DNA of 64,000 nucleotides. Source: Gemmobacter lutimaris (GTDB lineage Bacteria > Pseudomonadota > Alphaproteobacteria > Rhodobacterales > Rhodobacteraceae). A model generated the notes under the pieces. It had not been told where the DNA came from. It searched no databases and saw nothing but the letters and a program-made list of their open reading frames with translations. The translations under genes and the position numbers were made by a program. Location of the stretch: NCBI RefSeq assembly GCF_003570715.1, contig NZ_QXXQ01000011.1, forward strand, positions 62,001 to 126,000, given 5' to 3'. This document shows, in pieces, positions 42,921-64,000 of this stretch; position 1 is the stretch's first letter, and the number at the start of each line of letters is the position of its first letter.

Positions 42921-42963
42921 CGCGCATAGTAATCGTGCGCATCGACCAGGGCGGGAGCGCGTA

Positions 42964-43836: not shown

Positions 43837-43862
43837 CGACCGCAAATCTACAACCCTAGAAG

Positions 43863-44330
43863 ATGTCCTTCGCGACCGGCGGTCTGCTCCTGAACGAAAG
43901 CGTGGAAGTGGCCCGGCTTCATGTCCCGACAGAAGCGTGGGACGTCACCTTGCAGCGCGCGTTGGAGGAAGGCGTCACCTCGTTGCCCAAAGCCGCCTCG
44001 CGCCGTCGCACCCTTCGTGAGATCGTCAACCGGATTTCAATGCTAGATGAGGCAGAGCTCGAGTTTCTGGTTGATGGCGCAGACCGCCAAGACCAGCAGG
44101 CATTGCTGTGGCTTGCCGCCTGTCGAGCATACCGTTTTGTCCGGGAGTTCGCGACCGAAGTCATCCATGAGCGTTTCCTGTCGTTCCAGTTTGACCTGCC
44201 GCTCGATAGCTTCGATGTACTGTTCTCCGCGAAGGCTGAATGGGACGAAGGCCTTGCTGGGATCAGCCCGACGACGCGCGCGAAACACCGCGAAGCCGGG
44301 ATGGAATGGTCGAAAGCCTCCGCGTTCTAA
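43863..44330 (+). pseudogene. brxA: BrxA (DUF1819), truncated at the C-terminus
   Basis: A 155-residue remnant of BrxA, a DNA-binding BREX protein usually near 200 residues. The core is clear: RTLREIVNRISMLDEAELEFLVDGADRQDQQALLWLAACRAYRFVREFATEVI and FDLPLDSFDVLFSAKAEWDEGLAGISPTTRAKHREAG. The natural C-terminal helix is lost and replaced by a short tail (MEWSKASAF) that runs into an IS110 fragment. No brxB, brxC, pglX, pglZ or brxL follows, so the BREX system is not functional here. Confidence 0.82.
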
Positions 44331-45323: not shown

Positions 45324-47677
45324 ACAACCCGAAAAACTGTCCAAGGATCGGGGAGTAGCTCACTGTAATCAGGCTTTGTTTGCTTTCAAGGTCGCAAGGA
45401 GCGCGGGAGGTATAGCGTCACTGGGTACTGTGGGTGGTGAACAAGGCGTATTCAAAGCACACAGCGTGTTCACCAATCGCATCTGCTCGACAGTCTCGCA
45501 TTTCGCTTCCCGCAGACGCAGTGCGCCGAAAACCAGCGCCAGCCCCTTGGCGCGGGACACCGCGACATTGATGCGGTTGAGCGAGAACAGGAACTCCATT
45601 CCGCGCGAGGTTTCCTCGGCTGATGAGGCGGTCATCGAGACGAGGCAGACCGGGGCTTCCTGTCCCTGGAACTTGTCCACTGTGCCCACACGGATGGCCT
45701 CCGGCAGCGCGTCGCGCAGGGCGTTAACCTGTGCGTTGTAGGGGGCGACGACGATAATGTCGGTCGCCTGCAACGGTCGGGTGGTGCCGTCCTTCTCTGT
45801 CCACGTGCCTGTCAGGAGGTCGGTTACGGCCGCGCGGATCGCTTCAACCTCTTCGGCCGCGATCTGCGCATTGCCCTCGTGCAGGACAGGCACCCAGAAT
45901 GCCCCCACCTCGGGGAACCGCGTGCCACGGAGAGCCTGACGCGCGGTGTCAGGGTGGCTGGTCAGCCGCCCCTCATAGACCTGATCCGAGATGAAACGGC
46001 AGACCTCGGGGTGCATTCGCCGAGAGACGGGCAGGAAGATGCCGCGATCCGGCGGGACCGTCGCATGCTCGCCCAGCATCCAGTCGAGGCAGGACAGGTT
46101 CGCAGGCTCAGGATGCGCGCCCTGGATCACCTGCGGCAGTTGGCGCGGGTCGCCGACCAGCACGATGTTGCGGGCCGCCCGGCCCATGGCGACCATATTG
46201 GCCAGCCCTACTTGCCCCGCCTCATCCACGAAAAGCCAGTCGAAGGCCTGAACATTCTCGTCGCGAGAGAAGAACCAGGCCGTCGCGCCGACAACATGCG
46301 GGCCACAAGCCGCCTCGTCATTGCTGGTAGTGCGGCGCACCGGGCAATCGTCGGGGTAGCCGTCATCGTCGCCGCTGGTCTTGTGAACCAGATCGAGCGT
46401 GATCGGCAGATCCTCATCCTCGAGCGCAGCAAGACATCCCATCAGGACGTTGCGGATCGCTTCGTGGCTGTTCGATGTCACACCGACTCGGGCGCCTTTG
46501 CGCACCAAGGACAGGATCGCCCGGGCGGTGACATAGGTCTTGCCCGTACCGGGCGGCCCCTGGATCGGCAACACGGTTTCGTCCATTGCGCCGACCGCCG
46601 TGATCGTGCCCGCCACCGGGTCACTCACCTGCATCAGCGGGCCGGTCGTCAGGCGGGGCGCCGCGCGCGACAGCAGATCATCGACGGCCCGCCAGGCACG
46701 CGGCCCGCATTGGTCGGCAATGACGTAACGTAAGGCGCCAAGGATGGGTTTGGGATCAAGTGGCCAGTCGGGGTGCAGGTTCACCCGGTTGCCGAGAAGA
46801 TGATCTTTTCCGGGCCCAGCCCTCACCGTGACCTGCCGCCTCTTGCGATCCATCTCTGTGATGCTGACCGAGATCGGGGGACCATCGAACACTGGCACCG
46901 TCGCGCTCTTGCCGGGGCGAAGCTTCGTTTCCTGTAGGGGAAAGCGATAGCTGCGGGCAAAGGACCGCTTGACCGGCTCGATCGGACCAATCGCTTCCAG
47001 CCCCGCCAGCGCGTCCAGATCGTCGAGCAGGTCGTCCTCGTCCTTGGACGCGGAGTCGAACACCGCCCATTGCGCGGGCTTGGCCTCGCGCTTGTGGAAA
47101 AGGCCGAGGTTGAACAGCAGCGCCTGCCGGTCCTCGGGCAAGCCTGATCCGGCAAGTGCCGCGCGCAAGGCTTGCGCATCGGCATCTTCCTCGGCCTCTT
47201 TCGGCCCGGCGTCAGGGGCCAGGGTCGGCCACGGCCCCGCAGGCCGGATACTCACAAGCCAGTCGCGCAGTTCCTCGGTCGAGATGCAGTCGATGCGATT
47301 GTAATCCTCGATCTCGTCTAGGATCTGCTGTTCGCCCGTCTCGCGCCAGCGTTCGTAGGCGACAACCGATCCGCCCGCCGTCTTCACCTCGCCCTCACGC
47401 ACCCGGCCGTAGAAGGCCTCCATCGACTTGATGGAATAGTTCCGTTCCGACCCGATCAGCCCGCCACGCACCACGGCGAACAGATCGACAAAGCGACGTT
47501 CGCGCAGCATGCGATCGAGGAAGGCCTCGCCGATCCCGTATTTCGTGGTCAGGCGGCGCTGCGCGGTGATCTCGTAAGCGGCGTAATGATAGATGCGTGC
47601 AGCAGGGAACGCCTCCAGTCGCGCGCGGAAGAAGGCGAGAAGCTCCGAGAGTGCCTTGGCCTCTGCCACGTGGTCAT

Positions 47678-47691
47678 GTGCCCAGTGCCCA
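47678..47691. repeat. 7-bp tandem duplication causing a frameshift
   Basis: GTGCCCA occurs twice in a row. On the minus strand TGGGCAC is doubled inside the exonuclease-like segment of the nuclease/helicase gene. Confidence 0.85.
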
Positions 47692-48330
47692 GAAGGCGCG
47701 GAACTGCCCGTCGGCCCAGACCCCGTGCAGGTATTCGAGGCCTCCCTCGTAATGCGGATCGCCCTCGATGTCGTAGAACAGATCGCCCGGCTGCGGCGCG
47801 GGCAGTAGGTCAAAGCCCTTGCCGGGTTCGGCTGAGCGCAACTCGAAGGACGGGGAGCCGGTCTTGCGGGCGTGCTGCAGCCGGGCCTGCGTCACCAGAC
47901 GCGCGCGGGTGCCCTCGGCCATGCCCCGCACCGGACGATCCACTTCCGCAAGGGCCGCCATCGTGTTGATCCCTGCCACCTCCAGCTTCTTGACCTGCCC
48001 GCGGCTTATGTTCGCCACGTTGAACAGGCTGTCCTCGGCCTGCCAGAGGCTTTCGCAGTGATCTGCCCAACGACACGGGCCGCAATCGGCGCAAGGCACG
48101 GGGCGCGTGGGCATTGGGGCTGCCACGAAGGACTCCAGCCGCCCCCGCGCCGCCCGCGCGTAATGGACATAGTCCGCCAGCCGCAACGTCGCGCGTTCAC
48201 CGGTGCCCAGTTCGACATGGGTGAACTCGGGCGCGATACCCTGCACTTCGGTCAGAAAGTCGGAATAAAGCACGAGTTGCAGCACATGCTTGGGATGCGG
48301 GCTGCGTTTCAGTTTGGTATCGGCCACCTC

Positions 48331-49091: not shown

Positions 49092-52000
49092 TCAAACCCC
49101 GATCCTGTGGATCTGCACGCGGTCGGCACAGACCTCTCGGGCGATATCGACGACATGGCGATGATGGGTCAGGTAAATCGCCTGTCCGCGCCGGCCGAGC
49201 CTTTCCATCACGCAACAGGCCGAACGCGTCCGATCTTCGTCGAAAGTTTCGAAGATGTCGTCGCAGAAGAACGGCAGCGACGTTCCCTGATGCGCAAGCT
49301 GTTCATAGGCCGCGGCGCGCAGGGCAAGGTAAAGCTGAAACCGGGTGCCCTTGGACATGTCCTGCGCCTGCTTGGCCATGCCTTTGGAATCGAACGCCAA
49401 AAGCGTTTCGGAGGCGCCATCGACCTGGGTTCGCAGCTGCGAATAGGCGCCGTTCGTCAACTCGGCAAAGGCGGTTTCAGTGGCCTGCATCATCGCGCTG
49501 CGATGCGTATCGCGGTAGCGCCGGATCGCAGCGTCGGCCAGGTGATATCCGAGGCTCAACTCCAGGTGCCGAAGCGCCGCTTCCTGCATTTCCAGCTCGA
49601 TCGTCGTTTTCCGTTCGACCAGACGCGCCACCTCGGCATCCCCGCCGATCGAGCGCAACTCCTGCACCGCCGCGGCGCGGGCCTCGATCTTCGCCTTGTA
49701 GAGAGCCTCGGCGGTCTCGAGATCGGCCTCGACTTCCTCGAATCGGGCCCGCAGATCAGCCTGCGAGGTCTCGGCCAGAGCATGCCGCGCCGCGTCCAGA
49801 TCCGCAAGAGCGAGCGTCGCCAACAGATCGCGTTCAAGGTGCGCAAGCCTGCCGCGGTCGCCGATCACCTGCGCAGCCGTGCTGACGGCCTGCCGAAGAG
49901 CCTCCAGCGAGCCCGTCTCGACGCCCTCCGGAAACAGCCGCGCCATCTTCTCGACAGCAAGACGGATATCGTCCAGCGTTCTTCTGGTCTCTGAGAGCGC
50001 CTCGTCCAGTGCCACAATCCGCTGCGCGAGATCGAGCGATTTTTCCTCGGCGGCGACCGCTTCGTCGGCTTTCGCCACCAAGGCATCATAGTCAGCGCGC
50101 GGCGCCTCCGAAATCTCGACGCCTGCCCGCTCGCCGAGGTCTCGCACCCGCTTCGAGAACTGAGCCTGATCCGCCTCCATGCCCAGCACTTGGCGTTCCA
50201 GCGCGATCCGCTCGGTGTCGAGCGCGCGCAGATCATGAAGCGGTTTCAGGGATGCCTCGAGCAGGCTTGCGTTCATGGCTTCGGGAAGGAGTTTGGCGAT
50301 TTTCGCCGCCCAATCGTGCCGAAGTTGCGCCGCCTTGCGTTCCATATCCGCCAGTTTTGCGACCCGTTTTTCCCGCTCGCCCATGAGATCGTCAATGCGC
50401 GACCGGGCCGCCCGCAGCTTTTCCTTGTGCGCGCGCTGCCCGGTGAGAATGGCCTTCGCCTCGGCGACAATGTCCTCGAAGCGCGGCTCCTCGCGGCGCA
50501 GAAGCGGGGCGAGACCCTCGATCAACCTCTCTGCCCTTGCGAATGTCTCGCGGTGGTCCTCCTGCAGGCGCCGCAACTCCGCCGCGGCCTGCGCAGCCGT
50601 TCCCAGCTTGCGCAGCCATGCGACAAAAGTCTCCGGCATCATCGGCGCGCCGATGCCCGTCTGTCGCGCGGCGGATGTCAGGCCGTCCAGCGCCGTCTGC
50701 CGCTCTGCCGCCAAGGCCGCGATCTGCTGGTCCATCAGGCTTGCGCGAGCCTCCAGAGCGGCCAGATCCTGTTCGTGCTGGCGCAATGTGCCGAGGTCCG
50801 CGGCATGCGAGAGGCGCAGGTCCATGGCGGTGTCGACCCGCACCATCGCCTCTTCGAACTCCGCCGCCGTTGCGGCATTCAGCTTCGCCCTGTGCTCCGC
50901 CCATAGATCGTCGCGCCCGGCCCGGAGGCTTTGGGCCTGCGCATCCTCGATCAGCCCGCTGGTCGCCTTGATCCGGCCGATCCGCGCGGCGCGTTCGGCA
51001 AGCTCCGCCCGGTTGTCCTCAAGCTCGCGGAGCGCGGTATCGTGCCGAAGCGTGACCTGTTGCACGGTCTCGAGAAGAGCTTCGGCCTCTTCGAGGGTCA
51101 GCGGGCAGGTCGGCACGGTATCGAAGCTCTGCCCCTTGATCGAAAGCGCGTCGAGAGCACCTTGCGCGCGCCCTCGCGCAGGCTCCACGGCGCTGGTCGC
51201 GGCAATGAACCGTTGCGACAAGGCATCGATGTCGAAACGCGCGCAAACCTCTTCCAGATCGCTTCCGGCAGACATCTCGCTTGCAAGCTTGCTCTGCGCC
51301 TCCTCGGCCGCCACGATCCTGTCCGCCAGATCGGCCACCTCCGAACGCTCGGTTTCGGCTAGGCGCTCCGCATCCCGCATCGCGTCGCGCAGCGCGTCGA
51401 GGTCCGAAAGGGCTGCGGAGGAGAGAACCAGTCTAGCGGGATCGACATCACCGGAGGCCCCAAGATCGCGGGCGACCACCTGCCGCATGTCCTGTAATAT
51501 CCCCGAGAGCGCCCGACGCCGCCGGTCAAGGTCGAGTTCCGCCGTCATGTACCGGCTTCGCAACGCGTCCAACGCTTCGATCTCCCCCGAGATCGCCAGG
51601 TGCTCCGGGTGCCGCTCGATCCCTGCCAGTTCCGCGCGCAAGGTGTCGATCTCTGCGCCAAGGGCGTGCTCGCGGCTCTGCGCCGTGGCCTGATCGGTGA
51701 GCATCCGCACCAGCGTTTCCGGGTCGATATCAAGGCGCGCAGGCCAGGTCGCGAAGGGCACGAGGCGCGCGCCGAGCGCATCGATCTCGCCAAGAAGGGG
51801 CAAGGCCCTGCCCCGGGCCTCAAGCTGCGCCTTGGCCGCAAACAATCCCCTGCGATGCTCCAAAGCGCGTTTTTCTTCCGCATCGGCCTCGTCGGCCGCC
51901 TGTTTGAGCTTGCGATACTGCGCCGCCGAAATGTCGAGCTCACGGATTTGCCGTTCAACCTCGGCATGGTCTTTCTTCAAGCTTGCCAGCCGCGTCGTGC

Positions 52001-52544
52001 TCGCTCGCTTGCGATAAAGGCCGTCGGCTTCCGCCCGGACGCGGTCGAGCACCTCCGAAAGGTCGCTGATCCCGGCAGCGGCGGAAAACAGCAACCGGCC
52101 GATATCGCCCTTCGCCCTGGTGATTTCCTCGCCCCCTCTCTCGATCGTCGCGTCATCGAGACAAAAGAGGTTGCGGTAGTCCTCTTCCGAGAGCCCGCCC
52201 AGATGGGCCTGCAGGGCGCTATTCGGCACCTCCGCGCCCCGGGCATCGCGCAGCGAGGGTTCGCGGTTCGGCAGCCGCGTGAAGGCCATTTCCGTTCCGT
52301 CGATATCGAGCACACCCGATACCCGCAAGTTCTTGCGTTGATGCAGGAAATCGTAAGGCTCCCGATGCGGGAAGCCGTAGAGCAACCGCAGAAATCCCTC
52401 CATCGTCGTGGTCTTGCCCGCCTCGTTGCGGCCGATGATCACATGGAAGTCCGGCTCCCCGTCGCCCCGAGGCGCCCCGAAATCGAAACTCTGGCCGCTG
52501 AAACCACCGAAAAGCTCGAGGTCGAGCTGTCGCAACCGCATCAT
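49092..52544 (-). CDS. YhaN-like SMC/Rad50-type ATPase
   Basis: A 1,150-residue ATPase: N-terminal half of the ABC head with Walker A GRNEAGKTTTM (~38), long coiled coils (~170-1020) with no zinc hook motif seen, and the C-terminal head half with signature MSKGTRFQLYLALRAAA, Walker B PFFCDDIFETFDEDR and HHRH near the end. It overlaps the phosphoesterase gene by ATGA (52541-52544), a Rad50-Mre11/SbcCD-like pair. By family it should process DNA ends or structures. Both lie in a defence-rich region. Confidence 0.87.
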   Translation of the reverse strand: MMRLRQLDLELFGGFSGQSFDFGAPRGDGEPDFHVIIGRNEAGKTTTMEGFLRLLYGFPHREPYDFLHQRKNLRVSGVLDIDGTEMAFTRLPNREPSLRDARGAEVPNSALQAHLGGLSEEDYRNLFCLDDATIERGGEEITRAKGDIGRLLFSAAAGISDLSEVLDRVRAEADGLYRKRASTTRLASLKKDHAEVERQIRELDISAAQYRKLKQAADEADAEEKRALEHRRGLFAAKAQLEARGRALPLLGEIDALGARLVPFATWPARLDIDPETLVRMLTDQATAQSREHALGAEIDTLRAELAGIERHPEHLAISGEIEALDALRSRYMTAELDLDRRRRALSGILQDMRQVVARDLGASGDVDPARLVLSSAALSDLDALRDAMRDAERLAETERSEVADLADRIVAAEEAQSKLASEMSAGSDLEEVCARFDIDALSQRFIAATSAVEPARGRAQGALDALSIKGQSFDTVPTCPLTLEEAEALLETVQQVTLRHDTALRELEDNRAELAERAARIGRIKATSGLIEDAQAQSLRAGRDDLWAEHRAKLNAATAAEFEEAMVRVDTAMDLRLSHAADLGTLRQHEQDLAALEARASLMDQQIAALAAERQTALDGLTSAARQTGIGAPMMPETFVAWLRKLGTAAQAAAELRRLQEDHRETFARAERLIEGLAPLLRREEPRFEDIVAEAKAILTGQRAHKEKLRAARSRIDDLMGEREKRVAKLADMERKAAQLRHDWAAKIAKLLPEAMNASLLEASLKPLHDLRALDTERIALERQVLGMEADQAQFSKRVRDLGERAGVEISEAPRADYDALVAKADEAVAAEEKSLDLAQRIVALDEALSETRRTLDDIRLAVEKMARLFPEGVETGSLEALRQAVSTAAQVIGDRGRLAHLERDLLATLALADLDAARHALAETSQADLRARFEEVEADLETAEALYKAKIEARAAAVQELRSIGGDAEVARLVERKTTIELEMQEAALRHLELSLGYHLADAAIRRYRDTHRSAMMQATETAFAELTNGAYSQLRTQVDGASETLLAFDSKGMAKQAQDMSKGTRFQLYLALRAAAYEQLAHQGTSLPFFCDDIFETFDEDRTRSACCVMERLGRRGQAIYLTHHRHVVDIAREVCADRVQIHRIGV

Positions 52545-53782
52545 TCCGAAGCCCCTTTCATCAAGGCGACGAGATGGGTCCCCCCCGATGCCGCAAAATC
52601 GCGCACCAGCGCCGACATAGCCGCTTCGTCGGGCAGCAAGGCCGCCCGCCGCGCTGGCGGCAGTTGCGCCAACACCTCCTCGACCTCCGCCAAAGCCTGC
52701 GCGGCAAACCCCGCCTCGGTCGAAATCTGCGCCATCAGCCGGGCGATTTCGTCGGTGGCAGTGGTGTCGGCAGCCGTGGCGCTCGGCGTCTCGAGCGCAA
52801 GGCAGAACTTTTCCACCCACAGCCGCCCGGTCTCCTCGGCGATCTGCACGGCGGTTTCCGCCCAGATCGCGGCATCGCGCCGCACCTGCCAATGGCGGGC
52901 GCTGCGCCCGGCCAGCGTCAAGCGCAAGATGACCGTCTCACCGGGCGCGAGGCTTGCGCTCAGAGCGTGAAGAGCACTGCGGACCCGCTGGCGGATCTCG
53001 TCGTCGCTTTCGGCGCCGGTCACATCGATATCGTGCAGGAGGAACGTGACCACGGAGGTCGGCACCTCTTGCACGGTGATCTGCCCCGCCTCGATCGTCA
53101 GAAGCGTCGCCGATTTCGCCCCCGCCTCGCCGATGTCGCGCCCTTGCGGGATGCCCGGCATGACGATCCAGGGCGCATCCCGATACACCTGTCGCTTGTG
53201 GATATGCCCCAGCGCCCAATAATCGAAGCCCAGCGCCGCCAGATCGTCCACCGAACAGGGCGCATAGGTGTCATGCCCCACCGCGCCGGCGAGCGAGCTG
53301 TGCAGCATCGCGACATTGACGGCCCCCGGCACAGGCGCAGCGAATTTGGGCAGCAGGCTGTCGGGGGCGTGCCGGCCGGTGAAACTGACGCCGTGGATCC
53401 AGATATCGGTGTCGCCCAGTCGCACCTTGCCGCCGCGCCCGTCAAACACATGCACGTTGTCCGGCAGCGCCACCTCGCCGGTGATCGGGTTTTCGGCGTC
53501 ATGATTGCCCTTGATGTAGAAAACCGCGATCCCCGCCGCGCGCAGCCGCTCGATCTGCCCCGAGAGGAAGGCCGCCGTCTTTGCGCCGCGCTGCGCCCTG
53601 TCAAAGAGGTCACCCGCAATCAAGAGCGCGGCCACGCCCTCTGCCAGCGCGGTGTCGATGATCCGGACGAAGGCCTGCCGCGTCGCGGACTGGATGTGAT
53701 CGCGCAGGGTCTCGTTGCGCAGCGCGAGCGATTTGAGCGGCGAGTCGAGATGGATATCCGCGGTATGCAGGATCTTGATCAA
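52541..53782 (-). CDS. YhaO-like (SbcD/Mre11-type) metallophosphoesterase
   Basis: A 413-residue calcineurin-like phosphoesterase opening ILHTADIHLDSPL, with GDLFD (~57), GNHDAENP (~93), HSSLAG (~160) and GHIHKRQV (~190), the full di-metal set of Mre11/SbcD nucleases. TTG at 53782 is the chosen start: GGGGGA precedes it and the family motif follows at once; there is no nearby ATG. Coupled with the downstream YhaN-like ATPase. Confidence 0.88.
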   Translation of the reverse strand: MIKILHTADIHLDSPLKSLALRNETLRDHIQSATRQAFVRIIDTALAEGVAALLIAGDLFDRAQRGAKTAAFLSGQIERLRAAGIAVFYIKGNHDAENPITGEVALPDNVHVFDGRGGKVRLGDTDIWIHGVSFTGRHAPDSLLPKFAAPVPGAVNVAMLHSSLAGAVGHDTYAPCSVDDLAALGFDYWALGHIHKRQVYRDAPWIVMPGIPQGRDIGEAGAKSATLLTIEAGQITVQEVPTSVVTFLLHDIDVTGAESDDEIRQRVRSALHALSASLAPGETVILRLTLAGRSARHWQVRRDAAIWAETAVQIAEETGRLWVEKFCLALETPSATAADTTATDEIARLMAQISTEAGFAAQALAEVEEVLAQLPPARRAALLPDEAAMSALVRDFAASGGTHLVALMKGASE

Positions 53783-53841
53783 GGAACGTCCCCCGAATTC
53801 AGGCGCGCCTTCACGCCGATGCAGTTTCAGTGCGCCCGGTC

Positions 53842-54009
53842 TCATCGCGGCCCGGCAATGGCCAACCAAAGAACGATGCCGACAAGCCACACCGCGAACG
53901 CCAAGATTGCAACAATCATCGCGATGTGGAGCAAAGCTTGAACGGGCCTCGCGGAGAGGGCGACAAGGCCCGAAAGAACGAGCAGGGCCATGCTGGCGAA
54001 GGTCCACAT
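53842..54009 (-). CDS. Small two-helix membrane protein
   Basis: A 55-residue ORF with two hydrophobic segments (~2-20 and ~26-52). AGGGGAG lies upstream and it starts 19 bases after the HNH gene's stop, with the phosphoesterase following, so it would be the second gene of this cassette. Small membrane proteins often accompany defence nucleases. The call rests on hydrophobicity and position only. Confidence 0.5.
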   Translation of the reverse strand: MWTFASMALLVLSGLVALSARPVQALLHIAMIVAILAFAVWLVGIVLWLAIAGPR

Positions 54010-54028: not shown

Positions 54029-55417
54029 TCACCCCGCCGCTTCGGCGCATCCTTCCTGCGCCTGGGCGGCCATGAAACGCTGGAACTGATACTGCAGCGC
54101 CTCGCGGGCAAGTTTGTGATCGACCTCCCTGCCTGAAAGGTTTTTCGCATAGATCGAGCCCTCCAACGAGGGGCTGAGGACCAGCCTGCCCGAGCGCGGA
54201 TCGATGGCAATCAGACTGGCGTCGAACAGGGCGTGGATGTCACGGCGCAGCACCAGACTGTTTTCCGCCACTTCGAAAGCGGGATTGCCGGTGTGCGGAA
54301 TGACATGGGCGGCCTCGAGCGCCGCCGCGACCCGCACGCCGGTAAAGACGCACCGCCCGCCATGATGCCTCATCGCCATGTCGCGGAACTTCTGCTGGCC
54401 GGGGCGCGCCTTGACGATTGCGGTCTTGCGGTCTTCCTCGGCTTGCTCGATTTCAACGAGATCCTGCATGACGGCACGCGCCAGCGGCGAAAGATAGGCG
54501 GCCTCGGCTTGCGCCTTTTTGGCGGCGAACTCGGAGCCGAACTCCTGGATGAGCCGATCGATCGCATCGGTTTCGGCGGCGTTCATCTGCCAGGCCCGCA
54601 ACCCGCGGTCTTCGTCCATGCGCTGGAGCATGGGGAAATCCTGAGCCCGCGATCCCAGAATCCTGAAGCCGAACGGGCGCGGCAACAGCGTAACATCGCG
54701 CAGCCCGATCGCCAGCTCCTGCTCCCCCGTCTCGACCCGATCCGCGATGGCCGTCGCCGTCAGACCGAGGCCGTGCCCATAGGCCTTGTCCTCATGCGCC
54801 CAGATGTAAAGCCGGTCCCCCGGCGCGATCTTGTCACCGGGCGCGCGGTCACTTTTGGAAGACGCACGCTCGCCTGACCAGGGCATCCGCAGCGTTCCGC
54901 CCTCCCAATCCGTGCCGGATTTCGGCCGACAGATGCCGCCGGGGGCATGAACCGCGCCGTTGATCTTCAGGATGAAAGCCCCGCGCACCGCCCCCTTGCG
55001 CCCAGCCGCGTCGACGAGACCCGTCACATCGCCCCGCGTGATCGCCGCAAGAACACGGCTCGCGTCATCAAGGCTCAGGATGCCGAGACGAGTCAGCGGT
55101 CGCCTTGCGAACTGCGGATAGGACTTCAGATTGTGATTGGCGCCATCGTTTTCCGCGTCCGTCCATCCGTCCCCGGTCGGCTCCTTTTCGGTCCGCGTCA
55201 CGCCCTCGGGAAGATCGCGCGGCAGGTCCGAACGGACGAGCCAGAAATTGACGAGCGTGGAATGCCCCATTTCGAGACCGATCGGCAATTTCGTCGCCTT
55301 GTGGGTCCAGACTTCGAGGTGAACACGATTGCCCTGGCCCGAAGCGGTCGGCACAAGATCGAAATCCCGCCGCATGACCTTGTGAACCAGCGCTTTGACG
55401 GAGTCGATGTCGCTCAT
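54029..55417 (-). CDS. HNH endonuclease with possible EVE/PUA-like domain
   Basis: A 462-residue protein. The C-terminus (~355-410) has an HNH_2-type nuclease: RCVFTGVRVAAALEAAHVIPHTG, then ENSLVLRRDIHALFDASLIAIDP. A middle segment (~178-260, GDKIAPGDRLYIWAHEDKAYGHGLGLTATAI) has the spacing of an EVE/PUA-like fold, which reads modified bases; this is inference. The N-terminal ~150 residues are unrecognised. Such reader-HNH fusions act as modification-dependent restriction enzymes. First gene of the HNH-membrane-YhaO-YhaN cassette. The 263 bases upstream (55418-55680) hold no gene. Confidence 0.78.
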   Translation of the reverse strand: MSDIDSVKALVHKVMRRDFDLVPTASGQGNRVHLEVWTHKATKLPIGLEMGHSTLVNFWLVRSDLPRDLPEGVTRTEKEPTGDGWTDAENDGANHNLKSYPQFARRPLTRLGILSLDDASRVLAAITRGDVTGLVDAAGRKGAVRGAFILKINGAVHAPGGICRPKSGTDWEGGTLRMPWSGERASSKSDRAPGDKIAPGDRLYIWAHEDKAYGHGLGLTATAIADRVETGEQELAIGLRDVTLLPRPFGFRILGSRAQDFPMLQRMDEDRGLRAWQMNAAETDAIDRLIQEFGSEFAAKKAQAEAAYLSPLARAVMQDLVEIEQAEEDRKTAIVKARPGQQKFRDMAMRHHGGRCVFTGVRVAAALEAAHVIPHTGNPAFEVAENSLVLRRDIHALFDASLIAIDPRSGRLVLSPSLEGSIYAKNLSGREVDHKLAREALQYQFQRFMAAQAQEGCAEAAG

Positions 55418-55680: not shown

Positions 55681-58068
55681 TCAGGCATCGTAGAGATCCA
55701 CCAGCAAATCCGGGTTGCGCCCTTCGCCGGCCAACTCGTCGAGCAGTTGCTCGAGCAGGGGTTCGTAGTGCGAGACGGCGCGCAGGAAGGTCTCGTTGCG
55801 ATTTTCGTGTCGCGCAAAATCCGAAAGTGTTCTCTCGATTGCCACGCTCAGGGCGTCGGCAAGCGGATCGAGGCCTCTAACAAGGGCATTCCCTTCCTTC
55901 AGGCGCCACCGCAGCAGCCCTCCAAGCAGGAAGGGCGCATAATTGAAGCGTGTATAGTTGGTGTCGTGTTCCGCCGCGAATTCCATCAGCACGCGTTCGG
56001 CCAATTGCTCGACATGCGAACGCTCCAGCAGCAAGGGTGCCGTGTCCGAGCGCGACAGCAAGAAGGCGGCGGCGGCGGTTTCTTGGCGGTAAGACCATTT
56101 CTCGATAGGCCGCGCGAACAGACGCGCAAGGGCGATGCGCTCGTCGTTTTCCGACCGGCAGGTTCGGCCAAGACCTTGATAAATCAGCACCCAGCTTGCC
56201 TCGCTGAGCGCGAACGGGTGCTTGCGTCGGGCGGCCCTGTCCTGCCACGCCTCGAGCAGCATCGCGGGGATAGCGTCGGGGGCGCGGCGGAACTGCCAGG
56301 TGAGGAATTTGAGCGCGTGGTTGTCATTGCTCCCACGGCGCCCGGCGCGGCGATCTTCAAGCTCGGCCAAGGCACGCTCGGTCAACTGCTCAAGATGCGC
56401 GCGGCTCTGTTCCGGAACCTGATCGGGGATATCCCCGTCGCTCGAAATGCAGTGGCGCTTCAGCTTTCGCGCCGAAAGCTTGTCGGCGAGCACCTTCCAG
56501 TCCACCTGCGGGCAGCGGAGGTTCTGCGCCAGAAGGCTCGTCAAACCCTGGCCCGCGGGGCTATCCTCCCATAGCTCCATGCCGCAGGGCAGCACCAGCC
56601 GTTTCGGGATCGTCGGGGCGGGCCCGTCGAGCTCAACGACGAGGTCTTCCCACCGCCGATGAAGTTCGATCGCGCCCTCCCAATCGACGGTGAAATGGCG
56701 CGACAGTTTCGGCGCGTCGATCAACAGCCGCGCCCGACCGGCTGCGGGCACCTGTTCGACACTGAGCGAGACCGGGACGATTTCCGACACCGGCGCACCG
56801 ATCTCCACCCGGGCCTTGCGCGGCCAGGGTGCGAGCTCCTTGCGCAGATGCACGGAAAACTCGGCCTGACCCGCCTGAATGGCGAATTTCGCGGGTTCGG
56901 CAGAGCGATAGATGCGCCCTGCGGGCAGGGTCGCCCCGGGTTCGATCAGATCGTGGCTGCGCGCTCCGTCCTGCCCCAGAACAATGGTGGAGATCTGCGG
57001 CAGAAAGTCGAAGTAGACCGGCTCGCCCTCGTCATGTCGCCGCGCGGCCTCGAGCGCACCGCGCGCGATGATGTCCTCGGGCAGATCGATCAGCGCGCTT
57101 CCGCAAACCGCGCGCAAAGGCTTCAGAAGCGCGTCGCGCATGGCGCCCGTGGTGAGGCTTTCGAACAGGATCATGGCGCAGTCCGCCATTCCGCCCGCGA
57201 TCGCGCCAAGCCGGTCGTCGGGCGGCAGCTCGAGGGCACCGGGCGGGTCGATCTGGAAGAAATCGCCGCGCTCCGTGCGCAGCAATTCGGCGCGTGCGGG
57301 GCGCCCCAAAGCCAGCGCCGCGCGCGCCTGAGCATGATCGGCCCAATCCCCGCGAGGCCCCGCGCCGCCCGCGATCAAGGCCTTGCGCGCGGCATCGAAG
57401 AGCCCCGCATAGCCCAGCGGCGAGTCGATTGGCTGCGCCACCCGCCTGCGCTCGGGGGCGAAAAGGGCGCGCCCCCGGCCCATTTCGTGGCGCAACCGCA
57501 GCTTTTGTAAGGTGAAGCCTTCGCCGACGTGATTGATGACGCCAAGCGTCAGCCCCTCGTCGGGGGCGAGCCAATCCGCCTCCTCGGCAAGGCAGCCCAG
57601 CACCGCCAGCACTGAACGCCAGACCAACAGACCGCGCCCCAGGCGGCCTTGCGCCACCGCGGCTAGCAGGGCTTCTTGCAGGTCTTCGGTTCGGGCCGGG
57701 TGATCATCGAGCGCAATCGCGCAAACCCGCGCGCCGCTGGCAAGCCCGGCAAGGGCGGCTGCAAGCGGCTGCGTCGCGGGCCGGGGCGCGGCCATCAGAT
57801 CGCGCACCGTCGCGCGCCGGTCGGGGGCGCCGATATCGCCCCAGCCGCCGCCCCGCCCATGCGGCGCGAGGCGCGCCTGAGCCCCGCCAATCCAGCGTGC
57901 GCCGCGCCCTTCGCCCGTGCGCACGACGCTTGGTTGCAGCACCACCCCGGTCACCTGGAGAATGCCGGCACCCGCACTCTCTTCACCGTCCGGCCCGATA
58001 CACCAGTTCCGCGCGGCGCGGTCACCCCAGCCATTCAGATCGTATCCGCAAAGCTTCCGCCCCCTCAT
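55681..58068 (-). CDS. Large unknown protein, possibly Hsp70/actin-fold related
   Basis: A 795-residue protein, last of the five-gene operon, overlapping the DUF2357-like gene by ATGA (58065-58068). The opening CGYDLNGWGDRAARNW and the segment VYFDFLPQISTIVLGQDG then HDLIEPGATLPAGRIYRSAEPAKFAIQAGQAEFSVHLRK resemble an actin-fold start and an Hsp70 substrate-binding beta domain, followed by an all-helical C-terminal half (~540-795). The classic phosphate-loop signatures of Hsp70 are not obvious, so it may be degenerate. Function unknown; the tight overlap says it works with the upstream ATPase. Confidence 0.7.
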   Translation of the reverse strand: MRGRKLCGYDLNGWGDRAARNWCIGPDGEESAGAGILQVTGVVLQPSVVRTGEGRGARWIGGAQARLAPHGRGGGWGDIGAPDRRATVRDLMAAPRPATQPLAAALAGLASGARVCAIALDDHPARTEDLQEALLAAVAQGRLGRGLLVWRSVLAVLGCLAEEADWLAPDEGLTLGVINHVGEGFTLQKLRLRHEMGRGRALFAPERRRVAQPIDSPLGYAGLFDAARKALIAGGAGPRGDWADHAQARAALALGRPARAELLRTERGDFFQIDPPGALELPPDDRLGAIAGGMADCAMILFESLTTGAMRDALLKPLRAVCGSALIDLPEDIIARGALEAARRHDEGEPVYFDFLPQISTIVLGQDGARSHDLIEPGATLPAGRIYRSAEPAKFAIQAGQAEFSVHLRKELAPWPRKARVEIGAPVSEIVPVSLSVEQVPAAGRARLLIDAPKLSRHFTVDWEGAIELHRRWEDLVVELDGPAPTIPKRLVLPCGMELWEDSPAGQGLTSLLAQNLRCPQVDWKVLADKLSARKLKRHCISSDGDIPDQVPEQSRAHLEQLTERALAELEDRRAGRRGSNDNHALKFLTWQFRRAPDAIPAMLLEAWQDRAARRKHPFALSEASWVLIYQGLGRTCRSENDERIALARLFARPIEKWSYRQETAAAAFLLSRSDTAPLLLERSHVEQLAERVLMEFAAEHDTNYTRFNYAPFLLGGLLRWRLKEGNALVRGLDPLADALSVAIERTLSDFARHENRNETFLRAVSHYEPLLEQLLDELAGEGRNPDLLVDLYDA

Positions 58069-59564
58069 GCGGCCCCCCAGATGTCGCGGCCCAGAAACGC
58101 CCGGATCGAGGCGCGCCCTTGCGCAAGCGACGCCCCCGCGCCATCGAGCGCGATCGCCTCGACGAAGAGCCCGCCCCGCTCGGCGCTCACCGCTTCGGGC
58201 GCATGATGCCCCGGCGTCAGGATCAGCCCGTGCCTGATGCGCTCCTGCTGCCCCGTAACTCGCGCCAGTTCCGCAAGACGCAGGCCCGCCTGATCCGCAG
58301 CCTCCCGCAGATCGAGCCGCGCCATCGCATGCGGGGTCCAGACCGCAACGCGATGCGGAAAGGCGCTGCGGTCGAGCGGGTCGGAGATGCGCAGCGCCAC
58401 ATGCGCCCGCGCATAGGTCAGCAGGGTGCCGGGCCGTTCGGGCCGCGCCATCACTTCCACCACGCGGCCCTGGCGGTGCAGCCAGAACACGGCAATCGGC
58501 CGTTCCTGCTCGAACCAGAGCCCGTTGACGGCTTCCGAAAGGAACCGGATCGGCGATTGCGCGATCAGCTCTGCCCCCTCGACATCATGCAGCGCCAGCA
58601 CGATCGCCAGCACCGAGAAATCGGTCCAGGTCTGAGCCTGCCAGGCCCAAAGCTCGTCGAGCGCCTTCTCGCGCTTGAGAAGCGCCTCCCAAGCCTCGCG
58701 GATCAGCCGGTAGGTGCGGTCTTCGAGCAAGACGTAATTCGGCGTAACATCGACCGAGGCGATCGCCACGCCCAGATCGGCAAGCTCCGCCGCAACCGCC
58801 TTGCACAGCTTCACATAGGCCTGAACCGACTGAAACCGTTTGCTGCCCGCGGCGCGCGGATGCTCGCGCAGCCATTCGCGCCCCACATCCGACGCGAGCC
58901 GCAGATAGGCATGTGCGACCCGGTTCTCCAGCGTGTCGAAATTCTGATGCCGCACCACGGCGAGGATACGTTGATCCGCGCCCGCCCGCTCGGCCGTGTT
59001 GCGCCCGGGTTGGCGCGACAGCCAGCGCATCGCGGCGCGGTCCATTTCCTGCACCCGGTCGAGGGGGGTGAGCTCCCGATGTCGCCGCAGCACGCGCCGG
59101 ATATGCTCGCGGAAAGCCTTGAGCACGGGGGTCAACTCGCGCGCCTGCCGCACGATTTCGGCCATGCGGGGGTCTTCCTCCTGCTCGGCCCGGTCCCATG
59201 CGGCGCGCAACCTCGGCCAGAGCGCGGTCGGATCGTCGAGCGCCTCGCCCAGTTCCTGAACCCGCGCCGTCACCTCGTTCATCCGCGCGAGCGCCGCCAG
59301 AGCCTCGGGTGCGGCCTCGGCCTCCTTGCCCTTGCGGGGGCGCGGCGGAAAGCCCCGCCGCTCGGGCGCATGGGCGGCATCGCGGCGCGGATAGGGATGC
59401 TGCACCAGCAACCGTGGCTCCCCCCGAGCTTCGCCACGCATCACCACCACATGCTCGCCCGCCCGATCGGAGGGCGCGACCTCGCTCAGAAGGCAATCGC
59501 CCGGCCCGAAAACCGCCTCGGCACCCAGCCCGGCGCCGGCCCAGGGGCGCGCAAGCCGCAGCAT
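58065..59564 (-). CDS. DUF2357-like protein (McrC-type N-terminal domain relative)
   Basis: A 499-residue protein whose ATG overlaps the AAA gene stop (TGATG at 59564). The middle (~200-330: VVRHQNFDTLENRVAHAYLRLA, PNYVLLEDRTYRLIREAWEALL) resembles DUF2357, the domain joining McrC-type subunits to McrB-like ATPases. The D-(E/D)xK nuclease core of McrC is not recognisable in the C-terminal part, so it is probably a structural adaptor rather than the nuclease. Position directly after the McrB-like gene supports the relation. Confidence 0.68.
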   Translation of the reverse strand: MLRLARPWAGAGLGAEAVFGPGDCLLSEVAPSDRAGEHVVVMRGEARGEPRLLVQHPYPRRDAAHAPERRGFPPRPRKGKEAEAAPEALAALARMNEVTARVQELGEALDDPTALWPRLRAAWDRAEQEEDPRMAEIVRQARELTPVLKAFREHIRRVLRRHRELTPLDRVQEMDRAAMRWLSRQPGRNTAERAGADQRILAVVRHQNFDTLENRVAHAYLRLASDVGREWLREHPRAAGSKRFQSVQAYVKLCKAVAAELADLGVAIASVDVTPNYVLLEDRTYRLIREAWEALLKREKALDELWAWQAQTWTDFSVLAIVLALHDVEGAELIAQSPIRFLSEAVNGLWFEQERPIAVFWLHRQGRVVEVMARPERPGTLLTYARAHVALRISDPLDRSAFPHRVAVWTPHAMARLDLREAADQAGLRLAELARVTGQQERIRHGLILTPGHHAPEAVSAERGGLFVEAIALDGAGASLAQGRASIRAFLGRDIWGAA

Positions 59565-61582
59565 CAGCGCATGACCCCTTTCCAGACGAATTGTCCGGTC
59601 GAAGCCCCCGCAGCCTCGACCGAAAGACGGATGGCATCGGCGAGAGTGTCGTCGCCGAACTGCGCGGCCATCTTCTGCAACTCGGAGAATTGCTGGCTTT
59701 TCTCCTCGACATCCACGCCACGCAGTTTCGGCAGCAGGCGCATCTCGATCTGGTCGGCCAGCGCCATCGCGACCCGGTCGCCCACGCCCTCCGCCTCGGG
59801 ATAGGCCCCGGCATAGGCAAGGATCGCACGACCAAGGCGATGCCCGAAGGGCTTGCCGAAATCCTGCATCAGCATGAGCATGTCGTTCACCCGCGTCTCG
59901 GCCCGGCTCTGGTCGTCGGATTGCAAACCGCGGGCGCACCATTTCTCCCAAATCGTGCGGCTCAGCGCCTCCTCGGTGACCCGGTTGTCGCCCGCTTGCG
60001 ATTTCGCGATCCGCTTGGGCGCGCCGAACCGCATCACATTGGCGCGGTCGACCACCTTGTCAGAAAGCGACTGGGTGCTCTCGTCCTCGTTCATCGTGCC
60101 GGCAAACAGAAGATTGTAGCCGGGGAATATCCGCATCTGCGCCTTCGGAATCTCCAATTCGATCTCGGCATCCTTGCGCAATGTCTTGTCGCCTTCCTTG
60201 CCGCGCGCGGGGCGGCTTTCGAGGCGGCTGAGGAAATCCGAGAAGTAATATTCGACCCGGGCAAGGTTCATCTCGTCAAGCAGCACCATCAACAGCCGGT
60301 CCTGCACCGCATCGGGGTTGTTCTGCGCATCGAGGGCAAACATCGCGCGCGCGAGGTCGGTCGGGCGGAACCGGCCCTCGATATAGTTGTAGAACCCCAT
60401 CAGATCTTGCGGGCTGTCCCAACGCGGCTGCACCGGAACCTGAAGGAAACCGATCCCCATCCCGGCCGCATACTGGCGCGGCAACTGGCTTTTCCCGGTG
60501 CCGGAAATCCCCGCCAGAACAGCCATTTGCGTGGTGTCGTTCACCTTCATCGCGGTGTGGAAGGCGCACAGGGTGCGATTGGGGTATTCCAGCCCGAAGG
60601 CCTCGAACCGCTGCCGGACGCGCTTGAGCGCCTCGACCTCGGCCACCAGACCGCTCTTGCCCCAGGCCAGAAGCCGCTCCACCACCTGCGGCGGTTGCTT
60701 GAGCTCGCGCAACGGATCGTCCTCGGCCTCGCCGGTGCCCCCGGCCGCGATCCCCTTCGCCTTCTCGATCTCCCGTTCGAGCGAGGCCTTGCGCGCTTCG
60801 AGCGCAGCCATCCGCTCCGAGGCCGTGCCCTCATCCGACCGCAGATCGGCCAGCTTCTGACGCGCGGCGGCAAGTTCGGCGCCGATCTGGTCGAGATCCT
60901 GACGCGCCGCGACATGCGCCGCACGGGTCGCCGCGATGCGCTCTTCGGTTTCGCCAAGCTCCGAGCGCCGCGCGGTCAACCGCCCTTCGGTTTCGGCAAT
61001 ATCCGTTTCCAGCTGCACGGCCGTCCCGGTCAGTTCCGCCACACGCGCCTCGGCTTCTTCAAGCCCAAGACGCGCCTGCTGCAATTCGGCGACGCGCGCC
61101 TCGAGCCTTTGGCTTTCCTCCGTCAACTCCTCGATCCGATGCACGAGGCTTTCCGCCTTCTCGAGCCGCTCGCGCACCTCGGCCAGATCGGCGCGGGCGG
61201 CGGCCAGTTCGGCCTCGAGCGTCAGTTTCACCGTCTGCGCCTCTTCGACCTCGCGCCGCATCGCCGCCACTTCTTCGCGCCGATGCTCCATCTGGTTCCA
61301 TTCGGTCTGCAACTCGGCCAGCTTGCGGTCGAGCGCATCGACCTCGGCCCCCATGTCGGCAAGGTTCGCCAGCGCTTCGCGGCGTTTCGTCAACTCCTCT
61401 TCCAGATCGTTCAGCGTGGCGCGCTTTTCCTCGATCCGGGCGAGCACGGCCTTTTCTTCCTCGATGGGCCCGGCCAGCGCCACCACCTTGTCGTGGCGGC
61501 TGGCCAGAATGAGCGTGATGATCGACAAGATCGCCAGCGCGACCGAGAGCGCAACGAAGGCGACAATATTTGCGGTGAACAT
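59564..61582 (-). CDS. Membrane-anchored coiled-coil McrB-like AAA+ ATPase
   Basis: A 672-residue protein: one N-terminal membrane helix (~5-27), a long coiled coil (~35-270), and an McrB-family AAA+ domain (~320-640) with Walker A GISGTGKSQLP, Walker B LLMVLLDEMNLARVEYYFSDFLSRLE, and sensor loop FAGTMNEDESTQSLSDKVVDRANVMRFG. In McrB the equivalent of MNEDE reads MNTAD and sets GTP preference, so nucleotide choice is open. Nine bases separate it from the coiled-coil gene upstream. Anchoring by a helix plus coiled coil suggests action at the membrane. Confidence 0.85.
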   Translation of the reverse strand: MFTANIVAFVALSVALAILSIITLILASRHDKVVALAGPIEEEKAVLARIEEKRATLNDLEEELTKRREALANLADMGAEVDALDRKLAELQTEWNQMEHRREEVAAMRREVEEAQTVKLTLEAELAAARADLAEVRERLEKAESLVHRIEELTEESQRLEARVAELQQARLGLEEAEARVAELTGTAVQLETDIAETEGRLTARRSELGETEERIAATRAAHVAARQDLDQIGAELAAARQKLADLRSDEGTASERMAALEARKASLEREIEKAKGIAAGGTGEAEDDPLRELKQPPQVVERLLAWGKSGLVAEVEALKRVRQRFEAFGLEYPNRTLCAFHTAMKVNDTTQMAVLAGISGTGKSQLPRQYAAGMGIGFLQVPVQPRWDSPQDLMGFYNYIEGRFRPTDLARAMFALDAQNNPDAVQDRLLMVLLDEMNLARVEYYFSDFLSRLESRPARGKEGDKTLRKDAEIELEIPKAQMRIFPGYNLLFAGTMNEDESTQSLSDKVVDRANVMRFGAPKRIAKSQAGDNRVTEEALSRTIWEKWCARGLQSDDQSRAETRVNDMLMLMQDFGKPFGHRLGRAILAYAGAYPEAEGVGDRVAMALADQIEMRLLPKLRGVDVEEKSQQFSELQKMAAQFGDDTLADAIRLSVEAAGASTGQFVWKGVMR

Positions 61583-61591
61583 TCAGAAGCC

Positions 61592-63016
61592 TCAGTTCTC
61601 TTGGGCCGGGGTCGGGGTCGATTGCGGGATCTGCAAGGCATCGCGTCGGGCACTCAGGCTACCCAGTTCGACGGAGGCGGTATCGACCTGTCTGCGCAGC
61701 TCTTCCGCCTGTCCCTTGAGGGTCTGCACCGTGCCATTGAGGCGCGCGAGATCGCTTTCGGCCTGCATGATACGCTGATCAAGCGCAGCCTTGCGCGTCG
61801 TGGCCTCGGTCAGCGCCTGCTGCGCCGCCGCGGTCTCCGAGACCACGCCCGCAAGCGATGTCTGTGCCTCGGCCAGCGCGCTCCGCTGTTGCGACACCGC
61901 ATGTTCGAGTCGGGCTTGGGTTTCGCCAAGCTGCGCGATCGAGGCCGCCGTCGCCTCGGTTTGCGCCAGAACACTCTGCCGCTCGGCCACCTGCGCGGCC
62001 AGCGCACCGGCCTTGCCTTCGGCCTCGTCGCGCTCCGCCGTGGCTTTGGCTAGCGCCGTGCGAATCTCGGCCAGCTTGTCCTCTTCGGCCTTCAGACGGG
62101 CCTGCGTATCCGTCAGACGCGCCTGCGCCGCGTTGGCGCTGGCGGCAAGATCGGCCTGCCGCGATTGCGCCGCCGAAACCGCGCCCGCCAGCGTTTCGCG
62201 TTGTCTCGTGAGGTCGTCGACGGCCGTCGCCAGCGCCGCCTTGCTGCCCTCCAGATCGGCAACGCGCGGCGCAAGCTCGGCCTGCCGATCCTCGGCTTCC
62301 TTGAGCGCCGCGCGGGCGTCCGCGAGCCGCTTTTCGACATCGGCAAGGTCTTCCGCCTGCGCCTCGAAGCCCTTCACCTGTGCCGAGAGCGTCGCCACCT
62401 GCTCCAGCAGCGGCTGCAAGCTCGCCCGCGCCTCGGCAATACGGTCGTCGAGATCCGCGCGCTCCTTTGCCATCCGGTCGAGTTCGCGCGTCAGGCCCTC
62501 ACGTTCCGCGCCCTGCGCCTCAAGCGCCGCCGAACCGCTCGCCCGCTCCTTTTCCAAAGCCGCGATGTCGCGCTCGAGCCCGGCCTTGCTCTTGTCAAGC
62601 GCACGCACCTCCGCCGCGAGCTTGTCGGCCCGCGCGATCACGGCCTTTGCCTCGTCTCGATCCGTCGCGAGCTTTTCCAGCGCGCCCGCAGCCTTTTCCT
62701 GCGCCGCCAAGGCCGCATCTCGATCACGCACCACCGCGTCGCGTTCGAGGCTCAGGCGCAGCACCTCGTCGCGCAGGCGCGCAACCGCGCCCTCGATCTC
62801 GTTGCGCTCGCCAACCAGCGCATCTCGCCCCGTCTTCAGCCGGTCCCGCTCGGTCGCGTAATAGTCGATATCGCCCGCGATCTGGCCGTATTTCTGGTGC
62901 AACCCGTTCATCTGCACCCCCAGCACGCCCAGCGAGGCCAGCGCCATCACTGACAGGCTTGCCGCGATGATCGTGTGGGGTCGCGATTTACGAAAGGTCT
63001 CGTTCGACGAGGTCAA
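61592..63016 (-). CDS. Membrane-anchored long coiled-coil protein
   Basis: A 474-residue protein with one membrane helix (~16-36) and then almost entirely coiled coil (heptads of Glu, Ala, Leu, Arg to ~465). TTG at 63016 is taken as start because GGAGG lies 7 bases upstream, giving a 29-base overlap with the helicase; an ATG at 63046 lacks a ribosome site. Its architecture mirrors the N-terminal half of the ATPase encoded next, so the two may zip together. No enzymatic motif. Confidence 0.78.
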   Translation of the reverse strand: MTSSNETFRKSRPHTIIAASLSVMALASLGVLGVQMNGLHQKYGQIAGDIDYYATERDRLKTGRDALVGERNEIEGAVARLRDEVLRLSLERDAVVRDRDAALAAQEKAAGALEKLATDRDEAKAVIARADKLAAEVRALDKSKAGLERDIAALEKERASGSAALEAQGAEREGLTRELDRMAKERADLDDRIAEARASLQPLLEQVATLSAQVKGFEAQAEDLADVEKRLADARAALKEAEDRQAELAPRVADLEGSKAALATAVDDLTRQRETLAGAVSAAQSRQADLAASANAAQARLTDTQARLKAEEDKLAEIRTALAKATAERDEAEGKAGALAAQVAERQSVLAQTEATAASIAQLGETQARLEHAVSQQRSALAEAQTSLAGVVSETAAAQQALTEATTRKAALDQRIMQAESDLARLNGTVQTLKGQAEELRRQVDTASVELGSLSARRDALQIPQSTPTPAQEN

Positions 63017-64000
63017 GGCATGCCTCCATATCTCGGGCCAGTTCATCCACCCAGAACCGGCGCACGCGCCAGCCGAGGGATTTCAGTTGATGGTCGCGCC
63101 ACAGGTCGGAACTCTTGCGCAGACCATCGGCGGTTTCGTGGAACTGCCGCCCGTCCACCTCGAGGTCGAGCTTGATCTCGCCGCTGCCGAACAGCGCGAA
63201 ATCGAGCCGACGGCCGGCGATTTCATATTGCGGCATCGGCTTGAGGCCACGGGTTTCGAGCGCGTGGAACAGGATGCGCTCCCAGTCGCTGTCGAACACG
63301 CCCTCGCCGCTGCGCTTGCGCGGTCCGGTTGCGGCGGCGGCCAGTCGGGCGAGCGTGCGCACCTTGCCCGCGCGGGCGAAATCAAGATCGCCAAACACAT
63401 GCGCCACCGCCCGCGCCCGCGAAATCGCCACGTTCAGCCGACGATGGTCCTTTTGCACGAAGCTGACGGCGCTCATCGGGCTTGTTGCGGTGAGGGTGGG
63501 CGAGAAAAGGATCACATCGCGTTCCTGCCCCTGAAACCCGTCCACGGTGGCGACGCGGAACTCTGACGCCTCGAGCTTGTGCGCCGGTATCGCCGCGCGC
63601 ACCGCCTGTTCGATCGCATGCACCTGTCCGCGAAACGGCGAGGTCACCCCGAGCGTGCCGGTATAGCCCTCGCGCACGAGCAAGGTCTCGACAAAGGCGG
63701 TGATCGCGCGCACCTCGGCGCGATTGACGTTTTGCCCCTCGAGCACGGCAGGGGGCGGCACATGCGCCCATGCCAATCCCGGCTTGAGACCGTCGGGCGC
63801 GCGGATCGTTTTCGGATCGTAGGCCGTTTTCAGGGCCGAGCCATAGAATTCCTGGCTGATATAGTCCACGATCGGCCCGACCGAGCGGTATTGCTGGCGC
63901 AGCAGGATGCGTTCGGCCTCGGGCATTCTTTGCGCGAAATCGAAGAGGGACTGGCGGCTTTGCGCGAAGCGGCTCATGCGCGCGACCGGCAGGCCCTGCG
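62988..64000 (-). CDS. SF1 helicase with C-terminal DUF559/Vsr-like nuclease (3' part)
   Basis: The last ~336 residues of a protein entering from the right edge. Helicase motifs: RQQYRSVGPIVDYIS, ATVDGFQGQERDVILFSPT and HRRLNVAISRARAVAHVFGD (motifs IV-VI of Upf1/Dna2-like SF1). The last ~110 residues form a PD-(D/E)xK/Vsr-type nuclease (FDSDWERILFHALETRG, RRLDFALFG, LDLEVDGRQFHE, LKSLGWRVRRFWVDEL), as in DUF559/MTES_1575. It is the first visible gene of the operon and likely its nuclease. Confidence 0.85.
   Translation of the reverse strand, partial: QGLPVARMSRFAQSRQSLFDFAQRMPEAERILLRQQYRSVGPIVDYISQEFYGSALKTAYDPKTIRAPDGLKPGLAWAHVPPPAVLEGQNVNRAEVRAITAFVETLLVREGYTGTLGVTSPFRGQVHAIEQAVRAAIPAHKLEASEFRVATVDGFQGQERDVILFSPTLTATSPMSAVSFVQKDHRRLNVAISRARAVAHVFGDLDFARAGKVRTLARLAAAATGPRKRSGEGVFDSDWERILFHALETRGLKPMPQYEIAGRRLDFALFGSGEIKLDLEVDGRQFHETADGLRKSSDLWRDHQLKSLGWRVRRFWVDELARDMEACLDLVERDLS

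Follow-up and report, generated by a model that had tools for sequence, protein, structure and literature searches.

The window analysed here, a 64,000-nucleotide stretch of Gemmobacter lutimaris DNA (contig NZ_QXXQ01000011.1, positions 62,001 to 126,000), contains an operon of five co-oriented minus-strand genes, CnuH, CnuA, CnuB, CnuC and CnuD, which extends from window position 55681 to past position 64000. Gene for gene, its composition and order match the published description of Type III-B CoCoNuTs, and the best overall explanation, to which we assign a probability of about 85%, is therefore that it belongs to this subtype of derived Type IV (McrBC-like) restriction systems. The operon is predicted to act as an antiviral defence system. 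What this analysis adds to the description of III-B systems is the predicted membrane segments of CnuA and CnuB together with their suggested topology, and it is on this topology that the interest of the operon rests.

Composition and conservation of the operon

CnuH, a superfamily 1 (SF1) helicase with a C-terminal MTES_1575/DUF559 (Vsr-like) PD-(D/E)xK nuclease, enters the window only with the last 336 of its 1051 residues (62988..64000, stop at 62988); the full gene of 1051 codons lies at L003:8988-12143 on the same contig, equivalent to window positions 62988 to 66143. It is followed by CnuA (61592..63016; 474 residues), with an N-terminal hydrophobic segment and then a long coiled coil, and by CnuB (59564..61582; 672 residues), which combines an N-terminal hydrophobic segment, a coiled coil and an McrB-like GTPase with an NxD motif. 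CnuC (58065..59564; 499 residues) is McrC-like (DUF2357) with an apparently inactivated PD-(D/E)xK fold, and in CnuD (55681..58068; 795 residues) Hsp70-like domains precede a C-terminal part that is helical. The original prediction, made from the sequence of the window, described these genes as one co-oriented unit with gaps of −29, +9, −1 and −4 bases, which is correct provided that CnuA starts at TTG 63016; an alternative in-frame ATG at 63046 would give a protein of 484 residues. For CnuA, the longest frame lying between CnuH and CnuB was taken; in 23 of 43 loci its start falls 29 bases within CnuH.

Searching with a CnuD profile made from 12 alphaproteobacterial sequences yielded 51 loci, of which 50 came from genome contigs and one from viral contigs. 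At least 8.5 kb was present upstream of CnuD in 39 of the 51 loci, and all five genes occurred in 38 of these, the sole exception (L067) being a remnant. Since order and orientation were kept in the 38 loci, the five-gene arrangement is not due to chance; the operon is real and conserved, and the co-occurrence for which a neighbourhood survey had been proposed was found. Of the 38 five-gene loci, 32 had CnuH, CnuB, CnuC and CnuD at close to full length; in the other six, CnuH was shortened in four, CnuB in one and CnuD in one. Near-identical rows, among them some of Rhizobium, were excluded from the alignments, which comprised 39 of 52 rows for CnuC, 38 of 56 for CnuD, 27 of 43 for CnuH and 30 of 48 for CnuB.

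As predicted, CnuH proved to join an SF1 helicase to a Vsr/DUF559 nuclease, with AAA_11, AAA_12 and C-terminal MTES_1575 and DUF559 domains all above the Pfam cut-offs. The IGHMBP2-family helicase model also matched (E 9.7e-34), yet below its curated cut-off. Residues E955, D981, E995 and D997 were invariant in all 27 aligned relatives, and we read them as the catalytic residues; judged by its sequence, CnuH carries the operon's only putative nuclease with conserved acidic residues. In five Rhizobium copies (L018, L038, L057, L075 and L076) CnuH is reduced to its last 732 residues, and in L018 an annotated IS21 element lies directly upstream of the shortened gene.

The Walker A and Walker B motifs and the NxD motif GTMNED[ED] (GTMNEDE in the window) were present in all 30 aligned CnuB proteins, as expected for the predicted McrB-like ATPase fused to a coiled coil. 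The PADLOC PDC-M26A model likewise matched all 30, and Pfam AAA_5 matched CnuB below its cut-off. The coiled coils of CnuA and CnuB were called from family matches: both proteins matched many coiled-coil families, all below the curated cut-offs, and the CnuB profile matched coiled-coil chains of the PDB. For CnuA, scans of Pfam, NCBIfam and PADLOC gave no family above its cut-off, and almost all matches were to coiled coils.

All 11 aligned CnuC members matched DUF2357 at E <= 0.001, the window protein scoring below the curated cut-off. The positions that we read as the expected places of the catalytic Asp and Lys, 357 and 372, were occupied by I, L or Q and by M, Q, H or L, respectively, in 39 of 39 aligned proteins. 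Because both residues were thus replaced throughout, we read the CnuC nuclease as dead, that is, apparently inactivated, unlike the McrC nuclease of Escherichia coli, which is active. The suggestion that the DUF2357-like protein lacked a visible McrC nuclease therefore held, as did the broader proposal of an McrBC-derived system in which the nuclease resides on the helicase instead of the McrC-like subunit, with the motif lost in every aligned CnuC and the acidic residues kept in every aligned CnuH.

Searching PDB sequences with profiles of CnuC and CnuD produced no useful result, and CnuD had no match in Pfam, NCBIfam or PADLOC. The structure predictions proposed for the 499- and 795-residue proteins were made with AlphaFold and compared by Foldseek. 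The CnuC model (predicted local distance difference test score, pLDDT, 87.6) had as its top match the McrBC entry 6hz4 chain M (E 8.2e-6), which we took to be McrC from its chain size. The CnuD model (pLDDT 90.1; predicted template modelling score 0.70) had DnaK and further Hsp70 proteins as its best matches (E down to 6.2e-12), in line with the Hsp70-like protein originally proposed. Residues 500-795 of CnuD, its last 300 or so, were nearly all helical in the model, and Asp10, Asn12 and Gly13 of its first loop were invariant in 38 of 38 aligned proteins. The models thus support an McrC fold for CnuC and an Hsp70 fold for CnuD. A few strands were modelled at the N-terminus of CnuC, for which the preprint of Bell et al. 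describes, in its available text, an N-terminal immunoglobulin-like sandwich.

According to the main text of Bell et al. 2024 (PMC11090510), III-B systems consist of CnuH with a fused Vsr-like nuclease, CnuA, CnuB, a CnuC with a dead nuclease and a separate CnuD, lack TerY-P and occur primarily in Alphaproteobacteria. The published subtype is further characterised by a winged helix-turn-helix at the N-terminus of CnuH, by an OB fold and a helical insertion in the same protein, and by a HEAT-like domain that accompanies the Hsp70-like part of CnuD. The window operon shares the five components, the Vsr-like nuclease on CnuH, the NxD GTPase, the separate CnuA and CnuD, the dead CnuC nuclease, the absence of TerY-P and the alphaproteobacterial host, and no difference in composition from that text was found. 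When six TerY-P proteins were used in tblastn searches, the positive-control loci matched, and no match was obtained in the available flanks of the 51 loci, in the window locus or in the four plasmid loci. The NxD GTPase, the coiled coils and the III-B composition confirm CoCoNuTs as the nearest named class. Whether the layout was a known subtype or a new one had been left undecided: the first stands and the second, a new system class, was rejected, since the original prediction had itself held that a match to a described system of the same composition would speak against novelty. The operon is thus placed within a published subtype, III-B. Two observations weigh against this assignment: the CnuH N-terminus gave only weak matches, a few of them to winged-helix families (BLACT_WH in 5 of 27 relatives, best E 0.076; MarR_2 in 1 of 27), and the Foldseek match of CnuC to 6hz4 had low template modelling scores (0.21 and 0.28).

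Other NxD and McrBC-like systems differed more clearly. The locus on the Synechocystis plasmid pSYSX (L081), assigned here to Type III-C, has an NxD GTPase, a DUF2357 protein and a hydrophobic CnuB N-terminus, but it also has a separate phospholipase D protein, another gene order and no annotated gene in the place of CnuA. Three TerY-P-bearing CoCoNuTs (L082-L084; II or III-A, assigned here) share the NxD GTPase, DUF2357 and an upstream AAA protein, but they carry TerY-P genes and a CnuB without a hydrophobic N-terminus in 3 of 3. In a GTPase tree, built without the published III-B sequences of Bell et al., the window CnuB grouped among its relatives, apart from the III-C-like Synechocystis protein and the three TerY-P-bearing proteins; a long-branch warning makes the order of these outside proteins unsure. 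E. coli McrBC, although an McrBC entry was the best match of the CnuC model, has an NxxD motif according to the main text of PMC11090510. Druantia I and II, treated as Type IV CoCoNuTs in the available text of PMC12458937, resemble the operon in that their CnuB homologue has an extended coiled coil and their helicase a Vsr-type domain; they differ in that the helicase is YprA-like (SF2) and in that CnuB and the Vsr domain are both described there as inactivated. In the available text of the literature on CoCoNuTs and membrane-anchored McrBC systems (including PMC12458937, PMC12707154 and PMC12554148), no experiment on a III-B system was found.

Predicted mechanism and nucleic acid target

If the III-B assignment is correct, CnuB, anchored at its N-terminus with its GTPase in the cytosol, would form a ring driven by GTP and stimulated by CnuC. 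Nucleic acid that is foreign or aberrant, probably RNA in line with the proposal of Bell et al., would be recognised by CnuC and CnuD, and the complex would load or trigger CnuH, which would move along the strand and cut it by means of the fused nuclease. The complex would be kept by CnuA and CnuB at the inner membrane, the site of entry of phage nucleic acid, and the variable CnuA coil may be the sensing part.

A competing account, which we rate close to an even chance, is that the operon cuts DNA and not RNA, with CnuH nicking or cutting incoming DNA while unwinding it and the dead CnuC fold binding DNA. Vsr and DUF559-type nucleases act on DNA, the acidic residues of CnuH are conserved in all aligned relatives, and a Pfam scan matched no HEPN RNase in any of the five operon proteins. 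Bell et al., by contrast, argue for RNA from the Hsp70-like CnuD and the kinship of the helicase to UPF1 (main text of PMC11090510). It weighs against an RNA target that this was inferred by those authors and that the Vsr-like nuclease could equally cut DNA.

Membrane segments and topology of CnuA and CnuB

The membrane anchors that the original prediction gave to two coiled-coil proteins were recovered as N-terminal hydrophobic segments in both. Hydropathy reached 2.25 at the N-terminus of CnuA, the remainder of which did not exceed 0.77, and 2.82 at the N-terminus of CnuB. The segment was present in 43 of 43 CnuA rows and in 43 of 48 CnuB rows, the other five lacking an N-terminus: L034, L072 and L077 lie at or close to a contig end, and L052 and L073 are shortened frames. 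Of 33 CnuA rows, 31 had a [YF]G motif after the segment. These N-terminal segments are not mentioned in the main text of Bell et al. 2024 (PMC11090510), where the six occurrences of "transmembrane" all concern other proteins or belong to a reference and no words start with "membrane", "periplasm" or "anchor"; the available text of the preprint gives the same picture.

To compare the charges flanking the segments, identical segments were counted once, giving 39 distinct CnuA and 36 CnuB sequences; for CnuB, rows shorter than 440 residues (L052, L073 and L077) and the segment-less L034 and L072 were excluded. In 38 of 39 CnuA sequences the stretch preceding the segment had a higher net positive charge than the stretch following it, and lysine plus arginine (K+R) alone gave the same direction in 31 of 39. 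No lysine or arginine preceded the segment in any of the 36 CnuB sequences, and the K+R bias points to an outside N-terminus in all 36. FtsB and RmuC from related genomes, placed from match coordinates, served as controls. FtsB has its N-terminus inside and its C-terminus outside, and the RmuC nuclease is taken as cytosolic. By net charge, the excess lay on the N-terminal side in 18 of 19 FtsB proteins (all 19 used, an additional weak match excluded); for RmuC it did so in 0 of 19 by net charge or K+R (19 of 20 used, one without a segment).

Over 33 loci, mean pairwise identity was 23% for CnuA, 54-56% for CnuH, CnuB and CnuC, and 43% for CnuD. The CnuB coil alone was also divergent (36%), so that the divergence of CnuA is partly typical of coils. 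After position 60, CnuA contained no cysteine in 20,259 residues, versus 9 cysteines in 10,340 residues of the CnuB coil (redundant rows included in both counts). In N-terminal profile comparisons CnuA matched FtsB with 85% probability and CnuB matched it with 12%, and the membrane-proximal part of CnuA weakly resembles FtsB. CoCoPALM, as described in the main text of PMC11090510, is likewise an NxD system with an FtsB-like membrane and coiled-coil part, but there this part is fused to the GTPase, whereas in the window it is the separate, weakly FtsB-like CnuA.

The charge bias suggests that CnuA and CnuB have opposite topologies, with the GTPase of CnuB cytosolic and the fast-evolving, cysteine-free coil of CnuA periplasmic. 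A periplasmic CnuA coil is plausible, and the segments and their charges point to an envelope-anchored system. Several results tell against this picture. The membrane location of both proteins is a hydropathy prediction, the net charge of CnuB is mixed (higher on the N-terminal side in 11 of 36), and by K+R alone the FtsB control showed no separation (6 of 19 higher on the N-terminal side, 11 lower). The CnuA and CnuB N-terminal profiles also matched each other, at 55% probability; membrane and coil composition therefore contribute to the likeness to FtsB.

A simpler arrangement, for which we see a serious though not an even chance, places the CnuA coil in the cytosol beside that of CnuB, both proteins being simple membrane anchors of one cytosolic complex. 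Bell et al. suggest in the main text of PMC11090510 that the coiled coils of CoCoNuTs interact. The 15 residues that follow the CnuA segment contain a mean of 2.15 K+R, which is not low, and the K+R result for FtsB does not fit the known topology of that protein. However, the net charge of CnuA follows that of FtsB and not that of RmuC, K+R alone points the same way in most CnuA sequences, and the coil lacks cysteine. The fullest form of the envelope-anchored reading is tentative, and we think it rather unlikely as a whole: III-B CoCoNuTs would span the envelope, CnuA, with its FtsB-like membrane and coiled-coil segment, sensing infection or envelope damage through its fast-evolving coil in the periplasm, while CnuB, oppositely oriented, would hold its GTPase, CnuC, CnuD and CnuH on the cytosolic side to destroy nucleic acid at entry.

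Distribution and genomic neighbourhood

By record title, 46 of the 50 genome loci were alphaproteobacterial, an excess favoured by the search profile, which was built solely from Alphaproteobacteria; the other four were metagenome bins (Planctomycetales, Gammaproteobacteria, Saccharibacteria and Betaproteobacteria). The system is rare: among 295 genomes of the family to which the window belongs, 11 matched at E <= 0.001 (the window's own included, two partial or weak), and a class sample gave matches in 3 of 385 genomes, two of them weak. Four plasmid records had a match (Rhizobium, 2; Sinorhizobium, 1; Jannaschia, 1), that of Jannaschia (L020) being a degenerate copy with CnuD and a CnuC fragment. 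In two other degenerate copies, a CnuH piece adjoins CnuD (L027) or pieces of CnuH and CnuD share one open frame (L029).

It is improbable that the five genes serve as an envelope or stress module and not in defence: such a role would suit the hydrophobic anchors and the weakly FtsB-like CnuA segment, and no phage experiment on III-B was found in the available text of the CoCoNuT literature, but the occurrence is patchy, copies lie on plasmids and a viral contig, truncated relics exist, one copy adjoins Shedu and a restriction gene, and BrxA and DNA-processing genes lie near the window copy.

Downstream of CnuD, an HNH_2 endonuclease gene (54029-55417) was considered as a sixth component and rejected: no similar gene was found in 55 other loci, and the 263 bases separating it from CnuD also count against it. 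Farther away, an AAA_27 ATPase, SbcC-like by our reading, adjoins an Mre11/SbcD-like phosphoesterase (49092-54007), and a protein with RNase_H_2 and SF1 helicase domains (45369-47813) matches the PADLOC MkoA and MkoC models. A WYL-domain gene and then BrxA occupy 42916-44330; no PglZ match was found in the genome, and a BREX system therefore looks absent. A tRNA-Asn gene (41592-41666) and two similar short open reading frames at about 42212-42715, excisionase-like helix-turn-helix proteins by eye, perhaps mark an island edge. On the other side, past the window end, a WYL/WCX regulator gene (L003 12297-13427) is divergent from CnuH and possibly regulates the operon; beyond it lie a PD-(D/E)XK gene and a UvrD-type helicase-nuclease gene, resembling AddB and AddA.

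The 32 near-full-length III-B loci, mostly in named Rhodobacterales and Rhizobiales records, provide material for study. Their conserved, apparently opposite membrane segments offer a handle on where III-B systems work, a matter of location on which the RNA-targeting proposal is silent.

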